A stretch of DNA of 64,000 nt from Parasphaerochaeta coccoides DSM 17374 (GCF_000208385.1 NC_015436.1:1736001-1800000); one strand, 5' to 3'. Counted from the first letter of the stretch, positions 8,831 to 60,293 are shown. The notes: generated by a model not told the origin, from the letters alone. Made by a program: numbers and translations.

Positions 8831-8950
8831 GATACACCAAAACCCGACCTGTTTCGATTCGTCTTAACACGCTATCGAGAACAGGCCGCGGAGTGTGAGG
8901 ATATGTATTCCGTTACCGTCGGGACTTCAGTGCCAATCAATCAGAAAGTG

Positions 8951-9000
8951 TTTGAGGGGGCATAGTCACACCTGTCGGATAGCTATGCCCTTCCTCAAAT
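8951..9000 (-). terminator. Hairpin downstream of paralogue 3
   Basis: TTTGAGG..GGGCATAG pairs with CTATGCCC.CCTCAAA across a 17-base loop, starting 18 bases after the paralogue 3 stop codon. There is no strong T run, so it may be an mRNA-stabilising or processing hairpin rather than a full intrinsic terminator. Confidence 0.5.
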
Positions 9001-9017
9001 TCACCTCTTTCAATGTC

Positions 9018-43064: not shown

Positions 43065-43345
43065 TTCTTTTCCTTTTTCTTGAACTTCTCAAGCATGCGG
43101 TGAGTGACGACGAAACCGCCAACGACATTGATTGTCGCAAAGAATAGAGCGACAGCACCCAGAACCATGCAGAGCCTACTGTTACCTGAACCCGTCGCAA
43201 TGAGCGCCCCGATGATTGTTATGCCGGATATAGCGTTCGTCCCGGACATCAGAGGCGTATGGAGCAACGGGGGAATCTTCGTGATAAGTTCGTATCCCAG
43301 GAAAATCGAAAGGACAAATATGATGATGAGGTAGACAAGATTCAT
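43061..43345 (-). CDS. pntAb: NAD(P) transhydrogenase alpha subunit, membrane part
   Basis: The 94-residue protein has three hydrophobic segments and matches the C-terminal membrane part of E. coli PntA (SGTNAISGITIIGAL is a family mark). It is a separate gene, as in Rhodospirillum and many bacteria. It overlaps pntAa (43342) and pntB (43064) by 4 bases each, so translation of the three subunits is coupled. Confidence 0.95.
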   Translation of the reverse strand: MNLVYLIIIFVLSIFLGYELITKIPPLLHTPLMSGTNAISGITIIGALIATGSGNSRLCMVLGAVALFFATINVVGGFVVTHRMLEKFKKKEKK

Positions 43346-44511: not shown

Positions 44512-44572
44512 ATTCTCTCCTAATCTTGTCGTCCGGGGTGAAAATGATTTGTGAATCATATATGTGCCTATA

Positions 44573-44600
44573 TAAATAATAATCCATAAAATACAGTCAA
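44573..44600 (-). promoter_or_regulatory. Possible pnt operon promoter
   Basis: TTGACT (44595-44600) on the minus strand, with TATTTA 16 bases on (44573-44578). The surroundings are AT-rich. Confidence 0.4.
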
Positions 44601-44724
44601 GCCACTATTTTTCTTATAAATTGCAGTTATGGTTTTTTAATACGCGTCAAAGTGTAAATAATATCCAATAACAGAAATAAGTGCATGCGCGAATATGATG
44701 CCAAAAAAGACATCACGACCATTC

Positions 44725-44739
44725 TGGCGGCATCCGCCA
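44725..44739 (-). terminator. Short hairpin downstream of the FAD dehydrogenase gene
   Basis: TGGCGG-N3-CCGCCA, 38 bases after the stop codon; a T6 run follows only 18 bases later, so terminator function is doubtful. Confidence 0.35.
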
Positions 44740-44776
44740 TCCAGTCAAATGATGAGTTCGTATGTATGTCTTGCCT

Positions 44777-46192
44777 TCAACCAAGGATTTTCCCAGGGTT
44801 CATGATCATCTGCGGATCCAACGCTTCCTTCACAATCCTGTAAAGCTCATATTCCTCAGCAGGAATCAATTCTTTCAAATACCTTTTCCGCTTCAATCCT
44901 ATTCCATGCTCACCGCTTATCTTGCCGCCGAGTTCCCGCACTATGAAGGCGTACAGTTCCCTCAAGATTTCAGGTTCAATGATGTTCCAATGCTCAATGT
45001 TGCTTTCAGGATTCTTGACCAGCGTCGCGTGGAGATTCCCGTCCCCCGCATGTCCGTAACAAGGAATGGTGATATCATATTTTTCAGAAAGACGGGAAAG
45101 TTCAGGCAAGACATCAGCAATGGAACCCATGGGAACAACAATGTCTTCAAGGCTCTGCACCGGGCTATATACTTTCAGAGCTTCCGCGATATTCCTGCGT
45201 ACAGCCCAGATACGTTCCTGGGTGTTCCTGTCTTCCGCAATATAGACCTCCATTGCCCCATGCTCATTACAGATATCACCAATGGCAATCATGTCCCTTT
45301 CTACCTGTCCTTCATCCGTACCGTCAAGCTCAATCAACAACATCGCCCCGACACCTTCAATGGGAAGTGTCTCATTCAAATACACGCAGGACATTTCAAT
45401 GGAAAGTCTGTCCATGAATTCCATGCTGGTGGGGATGATACCTTTGGTCATGATGACCGGGACGACATCAATCGCTTCCTGGGCAGTCTTGAACGACACA
45501 AGAAGATCAGCCTTTACCACAGGCAGCCCGATAAGTTTGATGATGGCCTTCGTTATGATTCCGAGCGTCCCTTCGGAACCGATATACAATTGCTTGAGAT
45601 CATACCCGGAAACATCCTTGGTCACTTTACCACCGAGCCGGACGACATCTCCGTGGGGAGTCACGACCTCCAGAGCAAGGACATAACGTCCGGTGACGCC
45701 GTATTTCACGGCTTTCCCGCCTCCGGCGTTCTCCGCTATGTTTCCTCCAAGAAAACATGTCTCAAGACTCATGGGATATCCGGCAAAGACCAATCCGTGA
45801 GCCTTCACCTGCTCGTTCAGTTCATTGGTGATGACCCCAGCTTCCGCCGTCACCGTAAGGTTTTTCTCATCTATTTCCAGCACCTTATTCATTTTTTCCA
45901 ACGAAAGAACAATCCCGCCGAATACAGGTATCGCCCCACCGGAAAGCCCTGAACCTGCTCCACGCGGAGTCACCGGAATCCGTTCACGGGACGCAAGTTT
46001 CATAATCAGGGCAACCTGCTCAGTGTTCAAGGGAGTAACGACGACCTCCGGCATATGGGCATAATGCTCAATGGATGTCTCATCATGGCTGTAGGCTTCC
46101 ATCCTGTCCTTGTCATACAGAACATTATGGGAACCAAGTATCTTCACGAGTTCTTCCACCAAGGCAGGGGTTACTGTCGCATACATGTTCAT
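44777..46192 (-). CDS. FAD-linked oxidase, D-lactate/glycolate dehydrogenase type
   Basis: The 471-residue flavoenzyme has a PCMH-type FAD-binding domain (PRGAGSGLSGGAIP, GAGGGK-like NAGGGKAVKYGVTGRYVLALEVV) and an FAD-oxidase C-terminal domain with YGHAGDGNLHATLV and SGEHGIGLKRKRYL. It matches the GlcD/LctD family. Its gene overlaps the etfA stop by 4 bases (ATGA) and follows etfB-etfA. That is the gene set of the Acetobacterium lactate dehydrogenase/Etf complex, which drives NAD+ reduction with lactate by flavin-based electron confurcation. Lactate is therefore the first substrate guess, but glycolate or another 2-hydroxyacid is possible. Confidence 0.88.
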   Translation of the reverse strand: MNMYATVTPALVEELVKILGSHNVLYDKDRMEAYSHDETSIEHYAHMPEVVVTPLNTEQVALIMKLASRERIPVTPRGAGSGLSGGAIPVFGGIVLSLEKMNKVLEIDEKNLTVTAEAGVITNELNEQVKAHGLVFAGYPMSLETCFLGGNIAENAGGGKAVKYGVTGRYVLALEVVTPHGDVVRLGGKVTKDVSGYDLKQLYIGSEGTLGIITKAIIKLIGLPVVKADLLVSFKTAQEAIDVVPVIMTKGIIPTSMEFMDRLSIEMSCVYLNETLPIEGVGAMLLIELDGTDEGQVERDMIAIGDICNEHGAMEVYIAEDRNTQERIWAVRRNIAEALKVYSPVQSLEDIVVPMGSIADVLPELSRLSEKYDITIPCYGHAGDGNLHATLVKNPESNIEHWNIIEPEILRELYAFIVRELGGKISGEHGIGLKRKRYLKELIPAEEYELYRIVKEALDPQMIMNPGKILG

Positions 46193-47214
46193 GTGCTTCC
46201 ATCCTCCAGGACAAAGTCCAAGGCCAAGTCCAAGGCCAAGTTCAAGCGCCTGAGCAGTTCCGGAACAATCTCAAAAAGGTCTCCCACCAACGCGAAGTCC
46301 GCGACGCGCAAGAGATTCGCACGCTCGTCAGCGTTGATCGCCACGATGCATTCCGCCGTCTTGATACCTGCCATGTGCTGTACCGCGCCGGATATCCCTA
46401 TTCCCATGTAAAGCCGCGGGGAAATTGTCTTTCCGGAAAGCCCTACCTGATGCGGATATCCCTTCCATCCCCTGTCCACGGCATCACGGGTTGCCCCGAC
46501 CTGACCGCCAAGCGCATGGGCAAGGTCTTCAATCAAGCGGAAGTTCTCTTTTTTCTTCAAGCCCTTTCCCCCTGCCACCACAATTTCAGCTTCCATGATT
46601 GAGCCCTGATCAGAATGTTCCTTCCGTGTCCCCAGGACGGTGACTCTTTCATCCTGCCATGCAGGGTTCCAGGGCACACGGACGATTTCTCCTTTACGGG
46701 AAGAATCGGCGGGAAGATGCCGTATGGATTTTGCCCTGACCGTAGCCATCTGAGGGCGATGCTCAGGTGTCTTTATCGTAGCCATGATATTGCCGCCGAT
46801 AGCGGGTCGTGTCTGAAGGAGGTTCCCGCTCTTTTCCTCAATGGACAGCTCGGTGCAATCGGCAGTAAGGCCGGTTCTCAGCCGTACCGCCAGAGCAGGA
46901 AAGATGCTGCGTCCACTCGTCGTAGCTGCGCCAAGGAATATTTCAGGCTTATGTTCCTCGGACAATCCGGTAAGGATATTGACATATACTTCATGACCCG
47001 ACCATCCGAGCTGTTCATGGGTAACGACATATACACAATCAGCGCCATAAGTGAACAGAAGTCGGATCTCATCATCCGGGATGTCACCGATTACGACCGA
47101 ACAAAGTTTGCAGCGCAAGGAATCCGCCAGAGTCCTCCCCCACGCGAGAAGCTCATAGGAAACATCCTTGAGCGTAGTTCCGTGGCATTCAGCCAAAGTC
47201 CATACGTCATGCAT
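46189..47214 (-). CDS. etfA: Electron transfer flavoprotein alpha subunit
   Basis: The 341-residue protein has the EtfA FAD-binding domain in its C-terminal half: VVAGGKGLKKKENFRLIEDLAHALGGQVGATRDAVD, YPHQVGLSGKTISPRLYMGIGISGAVQHMAGI and ...ADFALVGDLFEIVPELL. It has no N-terminal ferredoxin-like domain, unlike the Acetobacterium LctC. The C-terminal tail contains two exact 12-bp DNA repeats (46216-46239), coding LALD-LALD. It overlaps etfB by 8 bases and the dehydrogenase gene by 4. It carries electrons between the 2-hydroxyacid dehydrogenase and the membrane or NAD pool. Confidence 0.94.
   Translation of the reverse strand: MHDVWTLAECHGTTLKDVSYELLAWGRTLADSLRCKLCSVVIGDIPDDEIRLLFTYGADCVYVVTHEQLGWSGHEVYVNILTGLSEEHKPEIFLGAATTSGRSIFPALAVRLRTGLTADCTELSIEEKSGNLLQTRPAIGGNIMATIKTPEHRPQMATVRAKSIRHLPADSSRKGEIVRVPWNPAWQDERVTVLGTRKEHSDQGSIMEAEIVVAGGKGLKKKENFRLIEDLAHALGGQVGATRDAVDRGWKGYPHQVGLSGKTISPRLYMGIGISGAVQHMAGIKTAECIVAINADERANLLRVADFALVGDLFEIVPELLRRLNLALDLALDFVLEDGST
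46216..46251. repeat. 12-bp tandem repeats at the 3' end of etfA
   Basis: GTCCAAGGCCAA occurs twice in tandem, followed by a third, degenerate copy. It codes LALD repeats in the EtfA tail. Confidence 0.7.
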
Positions 47215-48064
47215 GGCGACCTCTCTCCTGTCCCGGCAGATGTCCTGGTAGATGCCCTGGCAGATGTCCCAACAGATTTTTGTCCTTCAGAAACCGCAGA
47301 AGCTGATCGACAGCATCGCTTGCGGGAAATTCTTCCGAAACCTTCACTATGGTGGTGTTTCTCGTTATTTTGGGCGTTTCAATCCTTACTACCCGTGTGG
47401 GAGAACCTTTGAGTCCAAGAAGGGAGGGATCGGCGTCCAATGTCTTTGCATCCCACACGGGAATTTCAGCATGAAGTGTCCGTTTTTTTCCTGCCAGAGT
47501 GGGAAGGCGCGGGACGACAATCTCTTTTACGACCGTCAGAACCGCGGGAAGACGCGCCCGAACCTTCTGATATCCTTCTTCGACAAGACGTTCCACGGTG
47601 ATGTGAGTTTCCTCGACCTCAAGAAGTTTTGCCGCATACGTGACCATAGCCATGCCGAGCCACGCGGCCAAGGCGGGACCGACCTGTCCCGTATCCCCAT
47701 CCGTCGCATGCTCGCCTGTCACAATGAGATCCACATGCTCCAGTTTCCTGATGGCACAGGCAAGCGTATAAGACGTGGCACATGTATCCGCGCCACCGAA
47801 AGCCCTGTCAGAAAGATGGACGGCATCATTGCATCCCATGGCAATGGCTTCTTTAAGAACCTTGGATGCTGCGGGAGGTCCCATGGTCAACGCCGTGACC
47901 CTGCCGCCAATCTGTTCCTTGATGCGCAACGCTGTTTCCAAGGCATAGAGATCCAAGGGATTGATAATTGCCTCCGACCCGGAACGTATCATGGTTCCCG
48001 TTTCCGGATCCATCTTTACATTGCCTGTCTCCGGAACTTGCTTGATAGGCACGACAATATACAT
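47207..48064 (-). CDS. etfB: Electron transfer flavoprotein beta subunit
   Basis: The 285-residue subunit opens MYIVVPIKQVPETGNVKMDP and has the EtfB fold: VTALTMGPPAASKVLKEAIAMGCNDAVHLSD, DLIVTGEHATDGDTGQVGPALAAWLG and RLPAVLTVVKEI. It ends with GHLP repeated three times, coded by 12-bp tandem repeats; the normal EtfB lacks this tail. GGAGG precedes the ATG. It is the first gene of the etfB-etfA-dehydrogenase operon and starts 106 bases after ptsI. Confidence 0.95.
   Translation of the reverse strand: MYIVVPIKQVPETGNVKMDPETGTMIRSGSEAIINPLDLYALETALRIKEQIGGRVTALTMGPPAASKVLKEAIAMGCNDAVHLSDRAFGGADTCATSYTLACAIRKLEHVDLIVTGEHATDGDTGQVGPALAAWLGMAMVTYAAKLLEVEETHITVERLVEEGYQKVRARLPAVLTVVKEIVVPRLPTLAGKKRTLHAEIPVWDAKTLDADPSLLGLKGSPTRVVRIETPKITRNTTIVKVSEEFPASDAVDQLLRFLKDKNLLGHLPGHLPGHLPGQERGRHA
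47230..47265. repeat. 12-bp tandem repeats at the 3' end of etfB
   Basis: Three 12-bp units related to CCTGGCAGATGT code GHLP repeats in the EtfB tail. The frame is kept because each unit is four codons. Confidence 0.75.
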
Positions 48065-48174
48065 TGTCCCTCCTTGCCATCATATTCGGCATGTCTGATA
48101 TACAAGTGAATTTTTCTCACCGCATGATGGGAATTATGATCAGTAAATAAATTTTTGACCGTAGCTATTTTCAT
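48016..48174 (-). CDS. Possible small ORF between ptsI and etfB
   Basis: A 52-codon frame begins with an ATG that overlaps the ptsI stop as ATGA. AAAGGG lies six bases before it. It runs into the start of etfB in another frame. Its peptide starts MKIATVKNLFTDHNSHHAV. The coupled start is typical of real genes, but the overlap with etfB and lack of any recognised family make it doubtful. Confidence 0.25.
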   Translation of the reverse strand: MKIATVKNLFTDHNSHHAVRKIHLYIRHAEYDGKEGQCILSCLSSKFRRQAM

Positions 48175-49808
48175 GCGTTCCCTTTCAGGTTCAAGCCGCA
48201 TATCGCCCGCTTCGCCTGGGGAATAAGGGCTGAAGACATTGACAGTTCATCAACCCCCATGCGCAGGAATTTTTCTGCCAGGACTGGATTACCCGCCGCT
48301 TCTCCACAGATACTCACGGTAATGGAACGGGCTTTCGCATTGGCGACAGTCTGTCTTATTAAGGACATGACAGCAGGATTTTCAACATCGTACCAGGATG
48401 CCACATCTTCATTCATTCTGTCGGCTGCCAGAACATACTGCGTCAAATCATTTGTCCCTATGCTGAAGAAATCAACATGCTCGGCCAGTTCCGCGCTCAA
48501 TACCGCTGCCGCCGGAGTCTCCACCATGATTCCGAAAGGAATGGAGTCACGGACGGCAATCCCTTCTTTTCTCAAATCCATTCTTACGTACTCAAACAAT
48601 TCCTTCGTTTGTATAATCTCATCAAGCCGCGAAACCATTGGAATCATTATCCTGAGATTGCCAAAGACGGACGCCCTGCCCAAGGCGCGGAGCTGAGTGA
48701 TGAACATTTCCTTATGGGTCAGGCAGAGACGGATTGCACGCAACCCCAATGCCGGGTTTTCTTCCTTCTTCGTGGGGAGATAGGAGACCTGTTTATCCGC
48801 CCCGAAATCCAAAGTCCGTATGACGACCTTCTTGTCTCCCATGCCTTCAAGGACTTTTCTGTAGGCTTCGACTTGTTCGTCCTCTGACGGAGGAGCCGAC
48901 CTTTTCATGAACAGAAATTCAGTCCTGAACAGTCCGACTCCTTCCGCGCCGTAAGATAGAGCCTCATCCACTTCTTCAGGAGAACCGATATTGGCAAAAA
49001 CAGGAACATGTCTGCCATCCTTGGTCACTGCCTTACGTTTTCCTATGCTTCGCAACTCCTGATCTTCACTCTTCTGGGCGTGGATACGTTTTTCATACCG
49101 CCCTGTCATTTCTTCATCAGGATTGACAATCATAGTCCCGGCCTCTCCATCTACAATCACACGCTCTGATTCAAGGACGGCTGAGCAGGCTCCCCGCGCG
49201 GAAATGATACAGGGTATTCCCAATGAACGTGCGAGAATGGCAGCATGGGAAGTAACTGACCCTTCTTCAAGGACAATTGCCATGATTTTTTTGCGATCCA
49301 TGCTCATTGTTTCACTCGGAGACAGGTCTGATGTTATGAGGATAAAAGGAATGGCGCTCTCCGGAATCATGTCCGTCTTCCCTGTCAAGCGGGAAACCAA
49401 CACCCTGCCAATATCCAAAATATCGTCTTTCCGTGCCCTCATGTACTCGGAATCAAGCGCCGCAAACTCCGCGGCAAGAGCTTCCGCCGTATGCCAGACA
49501 GCATGTTCTGCCGTTGCTCCGGATCTGATGGCAGATGAAACAGAGGAAAGAAAGTCATCATCCTCCAGCATCATCAGATGTATGGAAAACACCTGTGCAT
49601 GATCTTCTCCCGCTGTATCCACAGCCATGCGGAAAGTTCGCTCGATTTCTTTTCGGGCATCCTCCAATCCTTTTTCAAAGCGAATCAGCTCTGCTTCCAC
49701 AGAAAGGGATGACGCATGAGAAACCCCAAGGGAATCTGTCTTGCGCCACACAATACCAGGCCCCATGGCGACTCCGGAAGATATTCCTTTTCCATCAACT
49801 GAATGCAT
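48171..49808 (-). CDS. ptsI: PTS enzyme I (phosphoenolpyruvate-protein phosphotransferase)
   Basis: The 545-residue protein takes phosphate from PEP on an active-site His in GSVTSHAAILARSLGIP and passes it to HPr. The PEP-binding TIM barrel is complete: GVGLFRTEFLFM, NPALGLRAIRLCL, MIPMVSRLDEI, GIMVETPAA, FFSIGTNDLTQY and SICGEAAGNP. It follows ptsH after 18 bases and closes the yhf operon. No sugar EII gene is nearby, so it may serve the whole cell or act only with the small PTS-like proteins encoded upstream. Confidence 0.97.
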   Translation of the reverse strand: MHSVDGKGISSGVAMGPGIVWRKTDSLGVSHASSLSVEAELIRFEKGLEDARKEIERTFRMAVDTAGEDHAQVFSIHLMMLEDDDFLSSVSSAIRSGATAEHAVWHTAEALAAEFAALDSEYMRARKDDILDIGRVLVSRLTGKTDMIPESAIPFILITSDLSPSETMSMDRKKIMAIVLEEGSVTSHAAILARSLGIPCIISARGACSAVLESERVIVDGEAGTMIVNPDEEMTGRYEKRIHAQKSEDQELRSIGKRKAVTKDGRHVPVFANIGSPEEVDEALSYGAEGVGLFRTEFLFMKRSAPPSEDEQVEAYRKVLEGMGDKKVVIRTLDFGADKQVSYLPTKKEENPALGLRAIRLCLTHKEMFITQLRALGRASVFGNLRIMIPMVSRLDEIIQTKELFEYVRMDLRKEGIAVRDSIPFGIMVETPAAAVLSAELAEHVDFFSIGTNDLTQYVLAADRMNEDVASWYDVENPAVMSLIRQTVANAKARSITVSICGEAAGNPVLAEKFLRMGVDELSMSSALIPQAKRAICGLNLKGNA

Positions 49809-49826
49809 GAGAACACCCCCTCTCCT

Positions 49827-50084
49827 TCACATGTTTTGCTGGCAATATGTCTCCAATGCCTGGCAGTCACTCTCCTCATGCTCTCCTTCCAGGGAGACTG
49901 TAATGACCTCCCCTTTCTGGATATCAAGTTTCATCAAGGAAAAAAGTTTTTTCAAATCAGCGCTTTTCCCTTTCGCCGAAATCGTCACATCAGAGGAAAG
50001 ACTCTTGGCGAATGCTACCACCTGCCCTGCGGGTCTGGCGTGAAGCCCGTTTTCAACCGTAACCGTATGTGTGAAATTCTTCAT
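49827..50084 (-). CDS. ptsH: HPr-family phosphocarrier with Lys at position 46
   Basis: The 85-residue protein has the phosphorylated His15 in GLHARPAG. In the second helix, where Bacillus HPr has the regulatory Ser46 (LKSIMG), this one reads LKKLFS, so residue 46 is Lys. The HPr kinase-dependent catabolite switch should be absent in this copy. It lies 65 bases after yhfW and 18 bases before ptsI, in one operon with the yhf genes. It may be the cell's general HPr or one dedicated to this cluster. Confidence 0.93.
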   Translation of the reverse strand: MKNFTHTVTVENGLHARPAGQVVAFAKSLSSDVTISAKGKSADLKKLFSLMKLDIQKGEVITVSLEGEHEESDCQALETYCQQNM

Positions 50085-50149
50085 TTTCCCTACCGTCCCC
50101 CGTCCTATATCCCCTGTCCTATACCCTATGTTCCATTATCAAACTATCA

Positions 50150-51364
50150 TCAAAATTTCTGTAGCTGCTGTAAGAAACTGGTTCCGTTCTCCGTAGGAGA
50201 AAGTTTGAAATAATCTGTGGCGGTCGCGCCAACATCAGATAATGTCTTCCGTATACCTATGCAGCCGGGATGGAAGCCCGCGCAATGAATCATGAGAGGA
50301 ACATATTCACGCGTATGATGAGGATGCCCTATGGTAGGGTCATTACCATGGTCAGCCATCACGACCAGAATATCCCCATGATCCATGAGACGTATGATTT
50401 CGCCTATCTTCCGATCCGCCAGACGAAGTATCCGGGCATACTTTTCCACGCTTTCCTGATGTCCCGACAAATCTGTTTCCTGGACATTGCAACAGATGAA
50501 ACCTTCAGGATATGTCTGGATCACTTCAATCATCTTGTCCAGGACAGCTTCCGTCTCGACTATGGAAAAACTATGGCCGAAAGGATTCTGAATGACATCG
50601 GCGGCTTTCCCAAGGAGAATTGACGGCAGCCCCGCGCGGCCTATGATTGAAGGAGCCTGGACATCAGGATTTACCCCGTACCCCATATGAACGCAATGAT
50701 AATCATTGTCGTATACTCCGGACTCCGGTGCGTTTATGCCTATATAACCGTTGTCATGTTCCTCAAGAGCAGAAAGTATTTTCTCCAACGATGTATTTCT
50801 CCCCCCGAAAGTGATGACACGGGGAACAAGGGATACACTGCGTACCAGACGACCTATCTTCAGTTCTTCTTCAAAGGAAATAAAATCCAAAGCACCCGTC
50901 ACATTGAACGCTTGGCCTGGATCACATTCAATGTTGTCCGCTACTGTCACCGCATCGTTGACAATCAATATCTTTTCCTTCTCTCCGGCGTATTCCCTGA
51001 CGCGATATCCCTTCTCCTGAAGAACACTGCGCACCGTATCAATTTTATTCTTGAACGGCTCGCTGAAAGGTGTCCTATACTTCGTGCCCACAATTTCCTG
51101 ATGTCCGAAGAACGTGTCAGCGCCATGATGAGTGAGTGTTCCTTTTCCATAGATGGCTGAAGGACTGATTTTCATGTTCTCACTCTCCCGTCCCGTTATG
51201 TTCATCAGGCCAAGCTGCTCCAAGACGGGAAGTTTGATTTCAGGCAATGCGTCAAGAATATGACCCCATGTATCTGATCCTATGTCCTGCGGTCTGACCT
51301 GTGGGACATCAGGCATCTGGCCTACTCCGAAACCATCCAGAACTATGATCATGAATCGCTTCAT
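50150..51364 (-). CDS. yhfW: YhfW-like phosphopentomutase-family metalloenzyme
   Basis: The 404-residue protein belongs to the alkaline phosphatase/phosphopentomutase superfamily. Its metal ligands are visible in IIVLDGFGVG, GADTFFGHQEIVG, NVQETDLSGHQESVEKYA, VVMADHGNDPTIGH and PHHTREYVPL. The DeoB-like cap inserts are present, and the length fits YhfW. It should transfer or isomerise a phosphate on a pentose-like or related phosphate ester. GAGGT precedes the ATG. It lies between the YhfX gene and ptsH. Exact chemistry is unknown for the whole family. Confidence 0.85.
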   Translation of the reverse strand: MKRFMIIVLDGFGVGQMPDVPQVRPQDIGSDTWGHILDALPEIKLPVLEQLGLMNITGRESENMKISPSAIYGKGTLTHHGADTFFGHQEIVGTKYRTPFSEPFKNKIDTVRSVLQEKGYRVREYAGEKEKILIVNDAVTVADNIECDPGQAFNVTGALDFISFEEELKIGRLVRSVSLVPRVITFGGRNTSLEKILSALEEHDNGYIGINAPESGVYDNDYHCVHMGYGVNPDVQAPSIIGRAGLPSILLGKAADVIQNPFGHSFSIVETEAVLDKMIEVIQTYPEGFICCNVQETDLSGHQESVEKYARILRLADRKIGEIIRLMDHGDILVVMADHGNDPTIGHPHHTREYVPLMIHCAGFHPGCIGIRKTLSDVGATATDYFKLSPTENGTSFLQQLQKF

Positions 51365-51403
51365 TTACTTTACCTCGTTTTCATGGCCCCGTTTTTTATA
51401 GCC

Positions 51404-52567
51404 TCATTCCCTGCCCCGAATTTTTTGCCCCGATGAAGTGAATATCCCCGAAATGCGCGGCATTCCCTGTGACAGGCCGGTCATGAGAGCTACCGAGCTT
51501 CTGGTGACAAACATCTGTGTACGGAAAGACATGATGACGCTCTCAGAAACAGGATGGAGTCCTTCCAGCGTGAAATAGTAATCTATGTTCTCCTCTGCCG
51601 GAGGACGGACGGGAACCACACGGCTTTCACGTGTGTCACCAACCAAGGCAAGCCGCATATGGGAACGCCGGTAATGACCTCCTCCATAACAGAAGGACAT
51701 TCCGCCCTCCGTATGGGAAACCTCACTGACATAGACGATGCCAGGAATTTCCGCACAGTTTTTTTCCGCATGCAAGGGCGTAGTCCCGGTCAAGCCATGA
51801 CCAGGTTCGCCATGTGTCCCTCCAATCTGATGTATGAGAGGAATGGTGTCGGAGCATGTGGCACTGGGAAGATTGACTTGGGAGACAGGAATTCCCCTGT
51901 CCCGTAACCAGGCTGCGGCTTTCACTACAGTGGAGGAATTATGCGTAGGAAAGATTGTCCCGCGCTTTTCGTCATATAAGAAACAGGGGAAAGCCGTTAC
52001 ACCGGCAATATGGACATGGGGGAGCTTACGCAGCGAACTTACCACTTCCGGCAGGCTTGCAAGCGAAAAACCGCCAGTCTGTCCGGGAAGGCAGATATCT
52101 CCATTATCCATGACCCGCAGCATCACCTGCTGCTCCATATGAAGGTGCGAGCATATATGTTCGATTTCCTGAGCCTTTTCCAGTGAATATATGGTCATTA
52201 TCTCAGGACGGGCGGAAAGAATCTTCGGAAGCGTTGCCTTCGGAGTCTGCACAAGATGCCCGACATTCCCAAGCGGGATTCCCTGGTCTACATACTCAAG
52301 AGCTTCCCGATAGTCCACAGCCACAGCTCCGGCATAGCCCATGTCTGTCAGAAGACGGGCAATGACGGGGTTATGTCCCACCTGCTTGAGCATGAAATAA
52401 AGCGAGACAGACTCGGCGTCAGCTGTTTTCTTGAGGTTTTCAGCATTAAGGGCAAGCCTGTCCATGTCAATCACATACGTATCAGGGAGAAGCTCCCCTT
52501 TTTTATGAAAGAAAATCGCGGCATCGACCAGACTTGGATTCAACTCCATGACTTTGTTGAGGAACAT
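51404..52567 (-). CDS. yhfX: YhfX-like PLP enzyme (alanine racemase-fold)
   Basis: The 387-residue protein has a fold-type III PLP barrel. The likely PLP lysine is in LYFMLKQVGHNPVIARLL near residue 60. Other landmarks are MLRVMDNGDICLPGQTGG and the strongly conserved GGTHGEPGHGLTGTTPLH and SFCYGGGHYRRSHM. It is placed just after yhfS, whose stop overlaps its ribosome-site region. It should act on an amino-acid-like substrate, as a racemase or eliminase; this follows from the fold only. Confidence 0.83.
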   Translation of the reverse strand: MFLNKVMELNPSLVDAAIFFHKKGELLPDTYVIDMDRLALNAENLKKTADAESVSLYFMLKQVGHNPVIARLLTDMGYAGAVAVDYREALEYVDQGIPLGNVGHLVQTPKATLPKILSARPEIMTIYSLEKAQEIEHICSHLHMEQQVMLRVMDNGDICLPGQTGGFSLASLPEVVSSLRKLPHVHIAGVTAFPCFLYDEKRGTIFPTHNSSTVVKAAAWLRDRGIPVSQVNLPSATCSDTIPLIHQIGGTHGEPGHGLTGTTPLHAEKNCAEIPGIVYVSEVSHTEGGMSFCYGGGHYRRSHMRLALVGDTRESRVVPVRPPAEENIDYYFTLEGLHPVSESVIMSFRTQMFVTRSSVALMTGLSQGMPRISGIFTSSGQKIRGRE

Positions 52568-52574
52568 AGGCAGA

Positions 52575-53696
52575 TCATTCCTTGTCTTTCAGGACAGTAG
52601 AGAGCGACTCCGTCAGAATGCGGAGAACCGTATCAGCGCCGGATCTCATGGGGTTTATGCGAATCGTGTTCTTTTCCATGCCCACACAGGCTTCACGGAA
52701 TGTACCGGACACTCGGTAGAACATCGGAGCAAACTCATATTTTGACTCACTTCCCACGGGATATGGCGCCACGCCATATTTTTCCGCGGTTTCCAGGAGC
52801 TTATCAGCAATATTTTCTTCAAATTCAACAAGTATGACTCGTGACTGGGCGTTGGCAATGAATGCTTTCCTCACCCCGTGGACTTCCCCCGCATTGAGCC
52901 TGCGGAGTATCTCATCAGTCACTTCCGCCTGAATAGCAAAGGAAACAGGCGCATAAACGAATCCCCGGAGTACCTCCATTGCTTCAGGTCCTTGAACCTG
53001 GCTTCCGCCGGAATAGCACCGGGAACGGATGAGCCGGACATATTCCTGACGACCGACGACAATGCCCACCCCTTCCGGCCCCAACAGTTTGAAGCTGGAG
53101 AAACAAGAAACATCCGCCCCTTCCTGGCAGCTTCCCTGGCAGCCTATCAAAGGAATTTTGAAGACTGCATAGTTATCATCGGTAAGGATTGCAATTCGCT
53201 TGTCAGCGGCTTTGATGCATGAGATGACATCATGCGCATCATAGGAATCATCCGGTTTCTGACGCGTGACCTGTACAAGCGCGGTCGTTATGTTTGTCCT
53301 GGCGCGAAGTACGGACATGAGGGCATCCTTGTCGTTGAAATCAACGGTGACCGTCTCCGCTTTCATGGTTGCCAACGTGTCCTGCGTCGTAGGATAGACA
53401 GGAGCATCGTGGAGCAACAGGACACCGGTGTCCGGCAGCATGGAACCGAGCGCATACCGGATTGCGCCAGTCCCAGCCCCTCTGACCAGAACCGCATCCT
53501 CCGCACCGAAGATGGCGGCTATAGCCTTTTCTACCCGCCGAGTCTGACGGGGGCCGTGGGATGAAGGGTCAATCCCGAAATCACCTGCTGACAACAATTC
53601 TTTCCCGGAAAAATGACGACAGGCACAGTCCACTATATGGAACTGGAGACGTTTTGCATCTTCAAGGGACATGGATTCCAATGGGTACGTCTTCAT
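52575..53696 (-). CDS. yhfS: YhfS-like PLP enzyme (aminotransferase fold)
   Basis: The 373-residue fold-type I PLP enzyme has the cofactor lysine in CFSSFKLLGPEGVGIVVG and the ring-stacking/phosphate region RGAGTGAIRYALGSM. It is related to the Cys/Met-metabolism and class V groups. It is 5 bases downstream of php and 7 bases before yhfX. A trans-elimination or transamination step on the same metabolite as YhfX is inferred from gene order only. Confidence 0.83.
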   Translation of the reverse strand: MKTYPLESMSLEDAKRLQFHIVDCACRHFSGKELLSAGDFGIDPSSHGPRQTRRVEKAIAAIFGAEDAVLVRGAGTGAIRYALGSMLPDTGVLLLHDAPVYPTTQDTLATMKAETVTVDFNDKDALMSVLRARTNITTALVQVTRQKPDDSYDAHDVISCIKAADKRIAILTDDNYAVFKIPLIGCQGSCQEGADVSCFSSFKLLGPEGVGIVVGRQEYVRLIRSRCYSGGSQVQGPEAMEVLRGFVYAPVSFAIQAEVTDEILRRLNAGEVHGVRKAFIANAQSRVILVEFEENIADKLLETAEKYGVAPYPVGSESKYEFAPMFYRVSGTFREACVGMEKNTIRINPMRSGADTVLRILTESLSTVLKDKE

Positions 53697-53701
53697 TTTT
53701 G

Positions 53702-54592
53702 TCAGTTCTCCTCGAACCTATAGACCCTTTTTGGGTTATCATGAAGCATCTTCTTGAGATCAGCCTTATTGATTCCCGCTTCCACCAGCAGAGGAACGAA
53801 GGTTTCAAGCAAGTAAGAATACCCAAGCCCTCCATTGGCTTTAAACTGCGACTTGCGCGTTATATCCATTGACATGACAATCTGTCCTGAATAGCCACGC
53901 GCACACAACGTGACCAACCAGTCCTTCCGTTTCTCGTCAGGCATGTAATTTTCTTTACCGATTGTATCGAACGCAATAGTGACTCCCTCATCCATAAGCC
54001 TGACCATGTATTCAAAATCTCCGGACAGGTCTACATGACTGATGACCACATGGGACAGGTCAACGCGCATGGTCTTGAACAAAGCCACCTGTTCCATCCC
54101 CAAGGTACCGAGCGTCGTATGTGTCGCGATGGCCGCGCCAGTTTCCAGGTGAGCTTTCGATGCCGCGCGGAATATTTTCTTTTCCAAGTCTGAAATGGCG
54201 TTCCTGTCCGTACCTATTTCCCCTATGAAAGATGCTTTGACAGAAGTGTCGTCAATCCCTTGTGTCAACTCACGGATCATCATGGCGGCAATGGAAGGCT
54301 CATCAAGTTCATACGCTTCTTCCGGCAGGAATGGCTCCTTGTAATACCCTGTACCATGGAGGATGTTCAGTGACGTCCTCCGGGCTACTTCCTCCACATA
54401 CATGACATTACGACCCATTCCCTTATTCGTCATGTCTATGATGGTGGAAACCCCCAGCTCCCGCAGCCTGGAAAATTCCGCTATGGTCTGTTCTTTTTCA
54501 TCCAGTCTGCAATCATCGGTTTTCTTGACTCCTGAAAGGTCTATCGTCGTATGTTCATGAGCATATACACAAGGAAAAACATCATTATTCAT
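53702..54592 (-). CDS. php: Phosphotriesterase homology protein (PHP)
   Basis: The 296-residue amidohydrolase-fold enzyme has the HxH of the PTE family (VYAHEHTTID), a bridging Glu in FIGEIGTD, His in IATHTTLGTLG and VVISHVDLSGD, and Asp in VMSMDITR. E. coli PHP (YhfV) uses Glu in place of the carboxylated Lys, and the Glu is here too. It overlaps the amidase gene by 4 bases (ATGA). A lactonase or phosphotriesterase-like hydrolysis is expected; the natural substrate is not known. Confidence 0.87.
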   Translation of the reverse strand: MNNDVFPCVYAHEHTTIDLSGVKKTDDCRLDEKEQTIAEFSRLRELGVSTIIDMTNKGMGRNVMYVEEVARRTSLNILHGTGYYKEPFLPEEAYELDEPSIAAMMIRELTQGIDDTSVKASFIGEIGTDRNAISDLEKKIFRAASKAHLETGAAIATHTTLGTLGMEQVALFKTMRVDLSHVVISHVDLSGDFEYMVRLMDEGVTIAFDTIGKENYMPDEKRKDWLVTLCARGYSGQIVMSMDITRKSQFKANGGLGYSYLLETFVPLLVEAGINKADLKKMLHDNPKRVYRFEEN

Positions 54593-55710
54593 TTTCTTTC
54601 TCCTGCCGGAATGAAATAATCTTCACTGACATCGTTGAAACCCACGGGAAAATAGTGCGCGGGATTGGATATGTACAAAGCTGTCATATCATCCTCAGGA
54701 ACTACGAATAAGCGGGCGGCACACAACATCCTGGCAATTTTCTCCGGCGTTGATTCACAGATGAGAACAATCCCGGAAGCAAATTCATGGGAAGGCACAG
54801 CAATGGCGGATGCTCCTGCCATGGTAACGACACGGAGCAGTCCCTTTTTCCCTGCCCGTTGCAGAATCCGGGTTCTTGCGTCCCAATGCCCGAAAACAGA
54901 GTCTCCGAACCCAGCGACATCCACCGGCCCTTCATGGGCGATGATGGCGTCACATGTCGGCAGCACATCCTTCAAGAACTCAATGAGAGGCATCCGCGAA
55001 TCATATACATCGGGACAGGAGAGAGAATGGAATTTTTCTTTCGCGAAACTTTCCATTACCAAAACTGAACTCCCGTCCCTGTCAGAGGTGTCAGAGGATT
55101 CCGGAACAGGAAAGACAGAAGCCATTTCCCTGGTGTTCTTTTCCATGTCTGCCATATCGAGGTCAAGGACACATGAGACAACACGAAGCAGTTCATCATA
55201 ATCCCTCGTGATGAATCCTACCGAGGGACGGAATGATATACCATCCGTCGAAGTTCGGGAAAAACGCGACAGCCATTCTGATTCTATCAAAGGACTGATG
55301 CACGCATACAGGTTCAAGCATAGCGCAGGGGCAAGGACAGATCCTCCTCCGTCCGTACCAATTCCTATGTCATTGATGCCAATACGGACATTGATGGCAG
55401 TGCCGCTTGAAGATCCTGTCATTGGCCTGCCGGTGACAGGATTGCGAAGGAAAATATCAATAGCCCGCCCTCCATGGCTGGCAACATCTAAAGTATGCAG
55501 CCTGTACGATCCTCCCTTTCTCAACTTTGACATGAGAGTGGGAGGAATTTGCACACGGTTCTTCACTCCGACATACCTGACATCCTCATCCTCCATGATT
55601 CTTCCAAAATCCGCCAGGATGGCCGGATGTACCTCATCCACGGAGGAATAAGGATTCTTCAAAGCAAGAAAAGTCTTTTGTGCATACATGGCCGTACGGC
55701 TACTGTTCAT
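54589..55710 (-). CDS. Amidase-signature family enzyme in the yhf operon
   Basis: The 373-residue protein has the core of the amidase signature family: TGSSSGTAINVRIGINDIGIGTDGGGSVLAPA, with the cis-Ser in GSSSG and the nucleophilic Ser in GGGSV. A possible general-base Lys is in VGVKNRVQIPP. It is shorter than usual (about 450-480 aa) with a compact C-terminal part. The start at 55710 has GGAG before it; the frame extends to 55755. It lies between yhfT and php and overlaps php by 4 bases. The E. coli yhf operon does not contain such a gene, so an amide or carbamoyl bond in the substrate is a natural guess. Confidence 0.78.
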   Translation of the reverse strand: MNSSRTAMYAQKTFLALKNPYSSVDEVHPAILADFGRIMEDEDVRYVGVKNRVQIPPTLMSKLRKGGSYRLHTLDVASHGGRAIDIFLRNPVTGRPMTGSSSGTAINVRIGINDIGIGTDGGGSVLAPALCLNLYACISPLIESEWLSRFSRTSTDGISFRPSVGFITRDYDELLRVVSCVLDLDMADMEKNTREMASVFPVPESSDTSDRDGSSVLVMESFAKEKFHSLSCPDVYDSRMPLIEFLKDVLPTCDAIIAHEGPVDVAGFGDSVFGHWDARTRILQRAGKKGLLRVVTMAGASAIAVPSHEFASGIVLICESTPEKIARMLCAARLFVVPEDDMTALYISNPAHYFPVGFNDVSEDYFIPAGERK

Positions 55711-55785
55711 TACGTTCTCCATTTCATGCGGTTCAGGCCAGCCATTCCGGCACAAACCGCATGAATGACAGATTTCCCCTTATCA

Positions 55786-57072
55786 TCACACCGGGTATAA
55801 GCCAATGATATGAAGGATGTTCACAAGGATTCCTACGGCAATTGCGCCGATAGGTCCAATGGCAAGTTCAACAATAGGTTTCTTTGCAAACTTGTTCAGC
55901 AAATACATTCCAATGATGACAAAGAGTCCGAATCCCGGAGCAATTGCCTGGGCAGCCATCATACCGCCGATCAGCAAGGCAATTTCCAAGACGCGACTCA
56001 TGGCGGTCCTTATGTTGTCACCGCATTTCCGTACCCCTGGGAACTTGTCAAGCAACTTTGCTATGTAAGTGAGCAGCAGGACTTCAAGGACAATGATTCC
56101 AGCACCAAGAATGAGGGCAATGATTGGATTACGTACAAGGAAACCTATTACGAATACAAAGGTCATTCCTACCGGACCATATACGCCCGTGGTAATCGCA
56201 GTCGTGGCTATCAACGGGATGAAGCCAATCGCACGTGCCAGCGCCGTCATAGCTGCATTTCCCAGCTCTCCATTTGCCGCAAGACCCAAGCTGATAGGAT
56301 CACCGGCTACAATGGAAAGGCTCGTCGCACAGGCGACAAGACCGCCCATGACAGCAAGATATGGGATGTTCTTGCGGATGCGTGATACTTTCTCACTGAA
56401 TACGGCGACAAGCTGTTCGTTAGTCGTTCCCGCGCCTTCCTTATCCCGGACTGCATACACAACCAGGAAAACCATGCCGGCGAGCAAAGCCATTCCGTCC
56501 TTGTTCAGGGATATCGTATACTCGCCCATGGGGAACGATCCGAAAACCGTGACTATCTGGCGGATAAGAAGTGTCACGCCCGCTGTAAGAATACCCTTCT
56601 TGAGACCATATTCCAATGCAACGGCTACTGCGGGGAAAATTGCGAACGCAATGGTAATCGGAGTGCTGACCTGTCCAAGGGAGCCAAGGAAATTAATCGG
56701 CAGCTTGGAAAAAAGATCAACAATGAATTGCAACCCAGCGACAAGACCGACTCCATATAACGCGCCCAGACCACCGGCGATGATCATGCCTTTCTTGCCC
56801 TTTCCGCAGAAAGTGCCAATGATATCCGTCCCCAGCAAGATGCTATGGATGAGGATGATTGTCGAAGTCAGCGAGACGGGGATTCCAAATCCGATTACAA
56901 GTCCGAAGCTGATTGCAAAGGATGTTGCCGCAAGGGCTTTCCTGTCCATCCTCCCTTCCAGGTATTCAGGAAGTATCGGACGAAAACCATCATTGAATAC
57001 TGCTACTCCAGTATTCGAGAGCACCGATGCCAACGCTCCCATTAATGCTATGGTGATATACTGAATGACCAT
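55786..57072 (-). CDS. yhfT: YhfT-like membrane transporter
   Basis: The 428-residue inner-membrane protein has about twelve hydrophobic segments and glycine-rich loops (ALMGALASVLSNTGVAVFNDGFRP at the start, KFAKKPIVELAIGPIGAIAVG near the end). It matches the E. coli YhfT type by length and placement. GGAGG precedes the ATG. It lies between yhfU and the amidase gene. Substrate import for the enzymes downstream is the likely role. It does not look like a classical PTS EIIC, and the transport mode is unknown. Confidence 0.8.
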   Translation of the reverse strand: MVIQYITIALMGALASVLSNTGVAVFNDGFRPILPEYLEGRMDRKALAATSFAISFGLVIGFGIPVSLTSTIILIHSILLGTDIIGTFCGKGKKGMIIAGGLGALYGVGLVAGLQFIVDLFSKLPINFLGSLGQVSTPITIAFAIFPAVAVALEYGLKKGILTAGVTLLIRQIVTVFGSFPMGEYTISLNKDGMALLAGMVFLVVYAVRDKEGAGTTNEQLVAVFSEKVSRIRKNIPYLAVMGGLVACATSLSIVAGDPISLGLAANGELGNAAMTALARAIGFIPLIATTAITTGVYGPVGMTFVFVIGFLVRNPIIALILGAGIIVLEVLLLTYIAKLLDKFPGVRKCGDNIRTAMSRVLEIALLIGGMMAAQAIAPGFGLFVIIGMYLLNKFAKKPIVELAIGPIGAIAVGILVNILHIIGLYPV

Positions 57073-57114
57073 AGACTCCTCCCTCTTTTTTTCGATTCCA
57101 GTCAGATAAGCAAT

Positions 57115-57471
57115 TCACAATGCATATGAAAGAATGATTGGAACTACTTTCCCAATGTCTTGAGCAGTAAACCCAAATGCTTTTTTACCTGCTTCAACCT
57201 CCTTTTTTATTTCTTCGTCACTCTTGATGCTCCCCGGCATGGACACAGTACAGCATGAACCCAGTCCCAAGATGGCTATAGCCAAGGCGAGAGCTCCTCC
57301 ACCCCCGGTGCTACAAGCTCCCAGGTATATGTCGGCAGCTCCTGTCCTGATTGCCATGGCCGCATCAATGTCGCTTTTTATTTCAACGGTCGCCCTGTCG
57401 CCGGCAATTTTCCTTGCCAGAATGGCGATCTCCTGTTTATCCATCTGTCCTCCGACCACAATCTTCTTCAT
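57115..57471 (-). CDS. yhfU: YhfU-like (DUF2620) protein
   Basis: The 118-residue cytoplasmic protein opens MKKIVVGGQMDKQEIAILAR. Its core SDIDAAMAIRTGAADIYLGAC is followed by a Gly-rich STGGGGALALAIAILG; it ends KKAFGFTAQDIGKVVPII. The length and motifs fit DUF2620/YhfU. The single Cys before the Gly-rich loop recalls the phosphocysteine loop of PTS EIIB proteins, but this is only a resemblance. GAGGAGG precedes the ATG. It lies 10 bases after yhfY and 42 bases before yhfT, so a partnership with the YhfT membrane protein is likely. Confidence 0.83.
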   Translation of the reverse strand: MKKIVVGGQMDKQEIAILARKIAGDRATVEIKSDIDAAMAIRTGAADIYLGACSTGGGGALALAIAILGLGSCCTVSMPGSIKSDEEIKKEVEAGKKAFGFTAQDIGKVVPIILSYAL

Positions 57472-57481
57472 TCCATCCTCC

Positions 57482-57844
57482 TCAAGAATCCTGTAGCTTG
57501 GAAAGCAAGACGCCGACGTGTACGCATAGATAGTCTTTCTCTGTTTCCGGCAACTCCGGAATGAAACGCACAATGTCTTCTACCAAAAACCGTGCCCGTG
57601 GGTACTCAGGTTCAGACTGGCTCTCCTCCAGGACTTCAGATGCCAAAGGTTGTACCGCCTCTCCCTTCCCTGTTCTTTCCAGCGCAATGCACAGATGAGT
57701 GATGAAGCCCGCCCCATTTTCTTCTGTAAGCGTTACCCCATGGGCACGGGAGAAATGGGCAATGACATCCTTGACTACCTTGTAATTCCTGGCAGAAAGA
57801 ACTCCTGAGTCCAGAAGCAGATCCATGCGCGTAGTGATGTCCAT
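57482..57844 (-). CDS. yhfY: YhfY-like PRD-domain protein
   Basis: The 120-residue protein matches the length of E. coli YhfY and looks like a single PTS-regulation domain: helical, with conserved His residues in DVIAHFSRAHGVTLTEENGAGFITHLCIALERTGKG and a late ENGAGF/THL core. PRDs are phosphorylated by HPr or EIIB on histidines. It is 26 bases downstream of yhfZ. AAGGAG precedes the ATG at 57844. Together with HPr and EI in the same operon it makes PTS-dependent control plausible. Confidence 0.8.
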   Translation of the reverse strand: MDITTRMDLLLDSGVLSARNYKVVKDVIAHFSRAHGVTLTEENGAGFITHLCIALERTGKGEAVQPLASEVLEESQSEPEYPRARFLVEDIVRFIPELPETEKDYLCVHVGVLLSKLQDS

Positions 57845-57870
57845 GACGGCTTTCTCCTTTTTGTTTTCTC

Positions 57871-58815
57871 TTAGTACTGAGGCATGCATGCACCTGCCAT
57901 GACTTTTTTCTGGTATTCCAACACCTCGTCAGGATTCAGCAATTCTGCGAGGATACGTGATATGAATGGTTTTCCGGCCAGGTGGATTATGGCTGCTTCA
58001 GTATCATCCTGACTAATTTGTTCCAGAGGGAATGAGAAGATTCCATTCTTCCTGGCATCCAGGGCATCGGCATTCCAAATGGTGGCGTCAATATCATTTC
58101 CCTTAAGGGCAGGAATAACCTGGTTGTATACTATGGGGACATATGTTACCTGGGTATCACGAAAGAAACGATGTGACAGTATCCTCTGATCCGTAGATGC
58201 TTCATCGACACCAATGCGACAGTTTGAAAAATCCTGCGCTTTCAGATTCACTCCGTTCCTGCACGTCACCAGGGCATGCTGATCAACATACGTATGCGGA
58301 CCAAAATTATGCGCAATGACAATGGGGTACTGTTTTTCTACATAATGCTCGGCGGCAAGGCGGGAGACCACCGCAAAGTCATATCTCTGCTCCAGGATTC
58401 CTTCAAGCCGATTATCAGCACCGCGTGAGAAAACAAGGGACGTTCGCATTTTTCCTTTGTTCATGGAAGTACTTATGCCTGTAGCAAGACCTTCATATCT
58501 TTTTGAATAGGGCAACGGCATGACGCCGACCAGTGAATTCATGTCACATATGTCAAGGAGGAGCGAAAGATTGAGATCCGTAATGAAGGTTCCAAGGCTT
58601 CCTCGTGGTTGGAGCTTTATTGCCCCTTCCTGTTGCAGGAATGAAAGAGTCGTCTGAATTGTTCCCCGTGAAGCATTGAACTGTCGGGACATCTCCTCTA
58701 CGGTCATGATACGATCCCCTTTTTCCAGACCGCAGAAAGCCGCCGCAACCTGTTGGGTGGCAATTCCGACTTTATTCATCAACTTCTTCTTCAGCACGAT
58801 GTACAACTCCCTCAT
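57871..58815 (-). CDS. yhfZ: YhfZ-like GntR-type regulator with a binding-protein-like domain
   Basis: The 314-residue protein has an N-terminal helix-turn-helix (TVEEMSRQFNASRGTIQTTLSFLQQEGAI). The C-terminal periplasmic-binding-protein-like domain contains MPLPYSKRYEGLATGI, YDFAVVSRLAAEHYV and NFGPHTYVDQHALV, as in E. coli YhfZ. It should sense a metabolite of this pathway and regulate the operon. The start is uncertain: ATG 58815 has no ribosome site, GTG 58797 follows GGGAG, and ATG 58779 is also possible. A perfect 16-bp palindrome sits directly upstream. Confidence 0.87.
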   Translation of the reverse strand: MRELYIVLKKKLMNKVGIATQQVAAAFCGLEKGDRIMTVEEMSRQFNASRGTIQTTLSFLQQEGAIKLQPRGSLGTFITDLNLSLLLDICDMNSLVGVMPLPYSKRYEGLATGISTSMNKGKMRTSLVFSRGADNRLEGILEQRYDFAVVSRLAAEHYVEKQYPIVIAHNFGPHTYVDQHALVTCRNGVNLKAQDFSNCRIGVDEASTDQRILSHRFFRDTQVTYVPIVYNQVIPALKGNDIDATIWNADALDARKNGIFSFPLEQISQDDTEAAIIHLAGKPFISRILAELLNPDEVLEYQKKVMAGACMPQY

Positions 58816-59055: not shown

Positions 59056-59111
59056 AAAACAGAACCGCCAGAATCCATGACATGGGCTGTGCGCGGACAA
59101 GAGGAATGAAA

Positions 59112-60293
59112 ATGAAACGGAATTTTGTTTACTATACACCGACGAAAATCATCTTTGGGAAGGGCGCGGAGACTCAGGTCGCCTCCCTTGTGAAAGAACA
59201 GGCTTGCAAGAAAATCCTCATCCATTATGGTGGAAACAGCGCCAGGAAATCCGGCCTTCTGGACAGGATACAAGCAACATTGGAAGCGGAGCGCATAGCA
59301 TATGTAACCCTTGGCGGCGTTGTTCCTAATCCCCTTCTCTCCCTTGTCTACGAAGGGATTGAGCTATGCAGGAAAGAGGGAGTTGATTTCATCCTTGCCG
59401 TAGGAGGAGGAAGCGTCATTGACTCCGCAAAGGCAATAGGGTATGGAGTCGCCAATGGCGGCGATGTCTGGGATTTCTTTGACGGACGCAGGAATGCCAC
59501 AATGTGCCTGCCTATCGGAACAGTCCTGACCATTGCCGCGGCAGGCAGCGAGATGAGCAGTTCCTGTGTCATCACCAAGGAAGATGGTGGTTTCAAGCGT
59601 GGATACAACAACGATGCATGCCGACCGAAATTCTCCATCATGAATCCTGAACTGACCATGAGCCTGCCTGACTACCAGACGGCATGCGGTTGCACAGACA
59701 TCATGATGCATACCATGGAAAGATACTTCAACCAGAGCGACAACTACGACCTTACTGATGGCATCAGCGAAGCATTGCTCAGGGTAGTGATGAAAAATGC
59801 CCGGATACTCAGGGACAAGCCGGACGACTATGACGCCAGGGCGGAAGTCATGTGGGCGGGAAGCCTTTCCCACAATGACCTGACCGGATGCGGAACCGGC
59901 GGCGGCGACTGGACCACCCACAGGCTGGAACATGAGATAGGCGGCATGTTCGATGTTGCTCATGGCGCAGGTCTTGCCGCGCTGTGGGGAACATGGGCAC
60001 GCTATGTGTACACGGCTGCTCCAGGGCGTTTTGTCACGTTCGCCGTGAATGTCATGGGCGTTCCGGCAACCGGTACTGACAAGGAAATAGCCGTGAAAGG
60101 AATTGAGGCCATGGAGGAGTTTTACCGCTTCATCAAAATGCCCACATCAATGACTGAGCTGGGAATTTCTCCCACTGATGCCCAGATTGAGGAAATGGCC
60201 GAGAAATGCAGTGCTATCTTCCCTGATGGCCTCGGTGCTGTCATGTCCTTGAAAAAGGATGACATGATTAAAATATATAGAGCGGCACGGTAA
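59112..60293 (+). CDS. Iron-containing alcohol dehydrogenase (BdhA/YqhD-like)
   Basis: The 393-residue group III dehydrogenase reduces aldehydes with NAD(P)H. It has the Rossmann GGGSVIDSAKAIGYG, the GTVLTIAAAGSEMSSSCVIT segment, and the metal ligands in CTDIMMHTMERY and the HEIGGMFDVAHGAGLAALWG stretch. The ATG at 59112 follows AGAGGA by six bases; the frame opens at 59082 without a site. It is divergent from yhfZ, which may or may not mean a metabolic link. Confidence 0.92.
   Translation: MKRNFVYYTPTKIIFGKGAETQVASLVKEQACKKILIHYGGNSARKSGLLDRIQATLEAERIAYVTLGGVVPNPLLSLVYEGIELCRKEGVDFILAVGGGSVIDSAKAIGYGVANGGDVWDFFDGRRNATMCLPIGTVLTIAAAGSEMSSSCVITKEDGGFKRGYNNDACRPKFSIMNPELTMSLPDYQTACGCTDIMMHTMERYFNQSDNYDLTDGISEALLRVVMKNARILRDKPDDYDARAEVMWAGSLSHNDLTGCGTGGGDWTTHRLEHEIGGMFDVAHGAGLAALWGTWARYVYTAAPGRFVTFAVNVMGVPATGTDKEIAVKGIEAMEEFYRFIKMPTSMTELGISPTDAQIEEMAEKCSAIFPDGLGAVMSLKKDDMIKIYRAAR

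Follow-up and report, generated by a model that had tools for sequence, protein, structure and literature searches.

A second HPr and enzyme I encoded with the yhf genes of Parasphaerochaeta coccoides as a probable phosphorelay to a stand-alone PRD protein

We analysed a 64-kb stretch of the genome of Parasphaerochaeta coccoides DSM 17374 (the window; the genome is one contig of 2,227,296 bp), in which a set of yhf genes forms one run with genes for HPr and enzyme I (EI), the general proteins of the phosphoenolpyruvate (PEP)-dependent phosphotransferase system (PTS). The run occupies window positions 48171-58815 and is made of 11 intact genes, all on the minus strand, in the order yhfZ, PRD, yhfU, yhfT, amidase, php, yhfS, yhfX, yhfW, HPr and EI. 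Profile searches with Pfam and NCBIfam confirmed the families of all 11, and the complete yhf operon set (YhfT, YhfU, YhfS, YhfX, YhfW, Php, YhfZ and the PRD protein) was found encoded together. The Escherichia coli yhf operon (yhfSTUWXYZ-php) is made of the same eight core families and has the same adjacency of yhfZ and yhfY (PRD), but it has another gene order, no amidase and no linked HPr or EI; BLASTN with the cluster as query yielded no match in E. coli genomes.

The first gene, yhfZ (57871..58815), encodes a GntR-like regulator with HTH_41 and YhfZ_C domains (PF14503, 215 bits; NCBIfam NF041241, 325 bits, above the cut-off). It is separated by 23 bp from the gene in the yhfY position, encoding a stand-alone PRD protein, the proposed phospho-acceptor (57482..57847; PF00874, 29 bits for a cut-off of 23); the start at 57847 is preceded by AAAGGAG, and an alternative ATG lies upstream at 57889. 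After 10 bp comes yhfU (57115..57471; DUF2620, PF10941, 139 bits), the product of which has a predicted RpiB-like fold, and after a further 42 bp yhfT (55786..57072; PF10797, 589 bits), encoding a multi-helix membrane protein and putative transporter. The gap to the amidase-signature hydrolase gene (54589..55722; PF01425, 33.9 bits) is 30-63 bp, depending on its start (ATG at 55722 or 55710, with TTG at 55755 another possibility). The amidase gene overlaps php by 4 bases; php encodes a phosphotriesterase (PTE) homology protein (53702..54592; PF02126, 268 bits) and lies 5 bp from yhfS, which encodes a fold-I pyridoxal phosphate (PLP) enzyme with a YhfS-like_C domain (52575..53696; PF22475, 146 bits; solved homologue 4j8l). 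Gaps of 7 and 39 bp separate yhfS from yhfX, encoding an alanine-racemase-type PLP enzyme (51404..52567; YhfX-like_C, PF21279, and Ala_racemase_N, PF01168; solved homologue 4kbx), and yhfX from yhfW, encoding a phosphopentomutase-like protein (Metalloenzyme/PRK12383; 50150..51364; NF009049, 563 bits, above the cut-off). The HPr gene (49827..50084; PTS-HPr, PF00381, 77 bits) starts 65 bp after yhfW and is followed after 18 bp by the EI gene (48171..49808), which encodes all three EI domains (PF05524, PF00391 and PF02896). An earlier note, made from the sequence of the window, had described this same-strand run with gaps of 75 bases or less, which agrees with the largest gap measured here (65 bp). 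Its mention of several 4-base overlaps was overstated; the only one within the run is amidase/php, and that of etfA/glcD lies outside it. Scanning the run for minus-strand terminators, a weak test, revealed none that was convincing.

Genome searches identified two HPr and two EI genes in total, indicating that the HPr/EI pair of the run is an extra one, separate from the other set. The other HPr gene belongs to an lptB-rpoN-hpf-hprK-HPr block and its product has Ser46. In this housekeeping block (L017, 5368-10690), an lptA-like gene, lptB, rpoN, hpf, hprK and the HPr gene come one after another, with a LexA-like gene behind them. The HPr of the yhf run retains His15, and its alignment showed that Lys46 replaces Ser46; the HPr proteins linked to yhf in L062 (Lys) and L052 (Arg) likewise have no Ser46. 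Since the HPr of the run has no Ser46, it should escape the HPr kinase of the genome, and control by this kinase is unlikely. The EI of the run has its TSHAAILAR and CGE motifs intact, so that both proteins have the domains and motifs (His15, TSHAA, CGE) of general PTS proteins. In phylogenetic trees the other EI of the genome groups with EI of the same family, whereas the EI of the run forms a long branch in another clade. The trees did not establish a single clade of all yhf-linked EI copies, nor did the approximately unbiased (AU) test reject one (p = 0.097). The whole-genome search found no PF02378 (EIIC), PF02302 (EIIB) or PF03610 (EIIA-man) protein, PF03611 and glucitol-type EII being outside the search; two PF00359 (PtsN-type EIIA) proteins are encoded. 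EI and HPr without sugar permeases are also found in permease-less regulatory PTS such as that of Brucella (PMC2937029) and PTS-Ntr, but the yhf pair is a second copy within a catabolic operon, and the regulatory hprK set is located elsewhere.

The linkage between pts and yhf genes was then compared across genomes. A GTDB genome scan with a YhfT alignment reported 490 yhfT loci, of which 80 were kept; relatives, plasmids and E. coli contributed a further 8, giving 88 loci, and a search of 393 Spirochaetota genomes yielded 7 more. HPr was found at 10 of 96 yhf loci, six of them with EI, in Spirochaetota, Bacillota and Fusobacteriota (the window, L052, L062, L077, L081, L086, L201, L205, L206 and L207). 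Among the 88 loci, five had HPr adjoining the cluster, and in the Treponema locus L086 EI was present as well; four of the 7 loci from the Spirochaetota search had both. Two layouts were found: the pts genes follow yhfW, directly or with nagB between (L201 has the gene order of the window), or they stand first, as in the spirochaete loci L205, L206 and L207, where the order is HPr-EI-PRD-yhfU-yhfT-php-yhfS-yhfX-yhfW and yhfZ is absent. Neither HPr nor EI was present in any of 37 control 20-kb windows taken from yhf genomes. When the pts label was mapped on a tree built from six concatenated yhf proteins (91 rows), it required five changes, compared with 9.7 for shuffled labels. Because one of these changes hinges on L112, where the contig ends 333 bp past yhfW, we counted at least four separate recruitments, ignoring L112. 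The window cluster grouped with L052 (Ruminococcaceae) and L062 (Fusobacteriaceae), apart from the clusters of its own family (L011-L014), and therefore probably arrived by horizontal transfer, along with its HPr.

These data bear on one alternative, that the pair serves the whole cell and lies beside yhf by accident. The absence of the pair from most yhf clusters would fit such an accident. Only about 0.2 adjacent HPr genes would be expected in 96 loci (a rough estimate, from some 3 HPr per 3,000 genes) against the 10 seen, the linkage spans three phyla and was acquired at least four times, and the genome has housekeeping HPr and EI elsewhere and no main PTS permeases to serve; we consider an accident very improbable. 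The earlier note had tied the PTS pair functionally to yhf, and its repeated acquisition and the divergent EI copies bear this out; linkage by chance in this strain alone is refuted by HPr and/or EI lying directly beside yhf genes in nine further genomes. Because related bacteria joined such a pair to yhf several separate times, phosphate transfer from PEP very probably controls the function of yhf or is coupled to it. Three other search matches were set aside: an extra EI in G151 (L194) with neither yhf nor HPr genes nearby, a weak YhfT match in G008 (L009/L016) that is an unrelated uracil permease, and another in G090 that is a short stretch containing stops. In Synergistaceae (L137 and L138 versus L097 and L104), the yhf set is split over contigs, with yhfT-php on one side and yhfU-yhfS-yhfX-yhfW or PRD-yhfU-amidase-yhfS on the other.

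The candidate for the acceptor of this phosphate is the 121-residue PRD protein. PRD is its only domain matched in Pfam and the only PRD domain in the whole genome. All 77 aligned sequences have its His51 (His65 if counted from the ATG at 57889); the second PRD His is kept in 92% of them, and Arg and Glu in 100%. The protein has the conserved phosphorylatable His of PRD-type regulators and no attached nucleic-acid-binding domain. LicT, MtlR and LevR-type regulators similarly have PRDs whose conserved His is presumed to receive phosphate from PEP through EI and HPr, but the yhf PRD is a protein by itself that carries no DNA- or RNA-binding domain, is encoded next to a GntR-like regulator and has a private EI and HPr. 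Of the 88 loci, 86 encode the PRD protein. In 81 of 84 loci yhfZ and the PRD gene adjoin each other, and they shift jointly between operon positions, which suggests that the PRD protein acts in concert with the regulator YhfZ. The YhfU-YhfT pair may be another target of the PRD protein, because L205-L207 place the PRD gene between HPr-EI and yhfU-yhfT, with no yhfZ. The two PTS proteins might instead switch another target of the operon on or off, an enzyme such as YhfS, YhfW or YhfU. PTS proteins do control enzymes by histidine phosphorylation, as for GlpK and DhaM, but the usual target of HPr is a PRD, and the near-constant presence of this one, with its His kept, makes an enzyme target improbable.

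YhfU and YhfT were examined as possible PTS components. The AlphaFold2 model of YhfU (pLDDT 96) matched RpiB sugar-phosphate isomerases in Foldseek with a probability of 1.0 and TM scores of 0.61-0.71 for the best matches. Cys53, invariant in 87 of 87 sequences, sits in the motif GAC-x-TGGGGAL and was aligned on Cys66 of E. coli RpiB, the sequence of which was checked against the PDB (hhalign score 31.0, versus 20.3 or less in 20 shuffled controls). YhfU is thus modelled as an RpiB-like sugar-phosphate-isomerase fold with the Cys-x-Thr-Gly-x-Gly loop. No family-level match to Pfam LacAB_rpiB was obtained, DUF2620 alone being matched, and no RpiB sequences were found in the fetched yhf loci. 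The AlphaFold2 model of YhfT (pLDDT 87) has about 15-18 helices; Foldseek against the PDB returned no significant match (best E 0.12, probability below 0.25). A first guess from the sequence, that YhfT is an EIIC, found no support in Foldseek against the PDB, in a sequence search of solved chains or in Pfam EIIC profiles, and YhfU as an EIIB was rejected on account of its RpiB-like fold and the lack of any EIIB match.

Another alternative is that PRD, YhfU and YhfT form a previously unrecognised PTS-type permease, with the PRD protein as EIIA, Cys53 of YhfU as the phosphorylated residue of an EIIB and YhfT as EIIC. The substrate would be phosphorylated on uptake, and the EI/HPr pair encoded in the operon would be the power source in some species. 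The order HPr-EI-PRD-yhfU-yhfT in L205-L207, the adjacency of yhfU and yhfT in 86 of 86 loci and of PRD and yhfU in 65 of 86, and the invariant Cys within a phosphate-loop-like motif are all consistent with such a permease. It is nevertheless unlikely: the loop Cys of RpiB is a catalytic base, not a phospho-carrier, and YhfT matches no solved structure though the PDB holds EIIC structures. Genome comparison makes PRD the more likely phosphate acceptor, not YhfU. The earlier note had put forward YhfU and YhfY as proteins to test for phosphorylation; the second, the PRD protein, is the better candidate through its invariant His51, and YhfU the weaker one through its fold. The part of the note that placed PEP-dependent phosphorylation in the yhf system is supported by the repeated evolution of the linkage. 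Uptake by a classical PTS permease is not supported, with no EIIC-like YhfT and none of the three searched permease families.

The enzymes of the run retain their catalytic residues: K53, SxS103-105 and S127 in the amidase, the metal ligands H12, H14, E125, H158, H186 and D243 in Php, Lys203 in YhfS, Lys61 in YhfX, and the conserved active-site residues of YhfW. The proposal of a catabolic set for an amine-, amide- or phosphate-bearing compound therefore holds in outline. The amidase gene is present in 65 of 88 loci, and yhfW lies beside yhfX in 78 of 78. In nine loci nagB (PF01182) follows yhfW within about 110 bp, and an AmiE-like beta-lactamase-family hydrolase is encoded near yhf in 15, including inside clusters, between yhfU and yhfT (L054) or between PRD and yhfU (the spirochaete L204). 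MupG was found near yhf in five loci, MurQ in three, NamZ in two and NagA in one. Together with the amidase, the two PLP enzymes and the phosphopentomutase-like YhfW, these nagB, AmiE and Mur neighbours provide a new lead, suggesting that the substrate is an amino-sugar compound, possibly derived from peptidoglycan. In Salmonella dga and Enterococcus EF_0829-0839 type loci, a PLP ammonia-lyase that acts on amino-sugar acids is under PRD or PTS control. The yhf run, with its proposed PRD control and its PLP enzymes, is similar to them, but YhfS is not DgaE by score, and its PRD protein did not reach the cut-off of TIGR03582, the EF_0829/AHA_3910 PRD family (16.7 against 69.35 bits). As separate observations, N-acetylmuramic acid (MurNAc) genes (PTS EIIBC, MupG, MurQ) directly adjoin the yhf clusters of L073, L102 and L099, with nagA also in L102, and EIIB/EIIC genes and a gene for a SIS-domain protein lie just upstream of the yhf cluster in a Clostridium metagenome-assembled genome (L064, 5133-7451).

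Collectively, we propose that the run was gained by horizontal transfer, as a catabolic yhf module that has a PEP-EI-HPr-PRD relay of its own and an amino-sugar-type substrate, a reading to which we give a probability of roughly two in three. EI would take phosphate from PEP and hand it on to His15 of HPr, which would phosphorylate the PRD protein at His51. The phosphorylated PRD protein would set expression, via its constant gene neighbour YhfZ, and/or the activity of a YhfU-YhfT uptake unit. The substrate, probably an amino sugar and perhaps of peptidoglycan origin, would be converted by the amidase, Php, YhfS/YhfX and YhfW to a glucosamine-6-phosphate-type intermediate. Phosphotransfer, the direction of control and the substrate are inferred from the genomes, and the output of the relay could be transcription, transport or both. 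Several points weigh against this proposal. No pts genes are linked to 86 of 96 yhf clusters, and a general HPr would therefore have to serve there. Several pts-linked loci have Asn or Tyr in place of the second PRD His, and yhfZ is missing in L205-L207, so that control through YhfZ is not universal. The absence of PTS permeases is that of the three families searched. NagB and Mur genes are linked to a minority of yhf loci only; none of nagB, AmiE-type, MupG, MurQ, NamZ and NagA genes occurred in the 37 control windows (from a subset of the yhf genomes), a comparison that favours these genes because the queries were picked from yhf neighbourhoods. The adjacency of nagB to yhfW is strong in itself despite this bias.

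Beyond EI, after a gap of 106 bp, lie etfB, etfA and a gene for a glcD-like flavin adenine dinucleotide (FAD) oxidase (44777..48064, minus strand; PF01012, PF00766, PF02913 and PF01565), a possible extension of the operon. Genes of the etf type are also found near the yhf clusters of L073, L097 and L102, but one of the 37 control windows has them too. The etfBA-glcD products encoded behind EI might oxidise a 2-hydroxy acid, for example D-lactate, which is a side product of MurNAc breakdown. The transhydrogenase genes pntA/pntB come next on the same strand as EI (41655-48064 with the etf and glcD-like genes). Further downstream, on the plus strand at 38777-41440, a secreted 887-residue protein with a PIG-L (N-acetylglucosamine, GlcNAc, de-N-acetylase) domain is encoded, and an iron-containing alcohol dehydrogenase gene (59082-60293) is divergent from yhfZ. 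Elsewhere in the window, two tandem near-identical genes (6891-10808) encode outer-membrane-like proteins of about 595 residues with signal peptides, and a more distant third copy lies at 5023-6822.

The yhf genes, a set with no reported function, occur in hundreds of genomes besides that of E. coli, and we found no open-access paper on yhf function or on a link between yhf and the PTS. In P. coccoides a full phosphorelay apparently serves a single operon, in a genome without the main PTS sugar-permease families. The neighbouring nagB, MurQ, MupG and AmiE genes give a concrete substrate class for yhf, and the repeated recruitment of a private EI and HPr provides a direct biochemical handle on the system, namely which protein accepts the phosphate.

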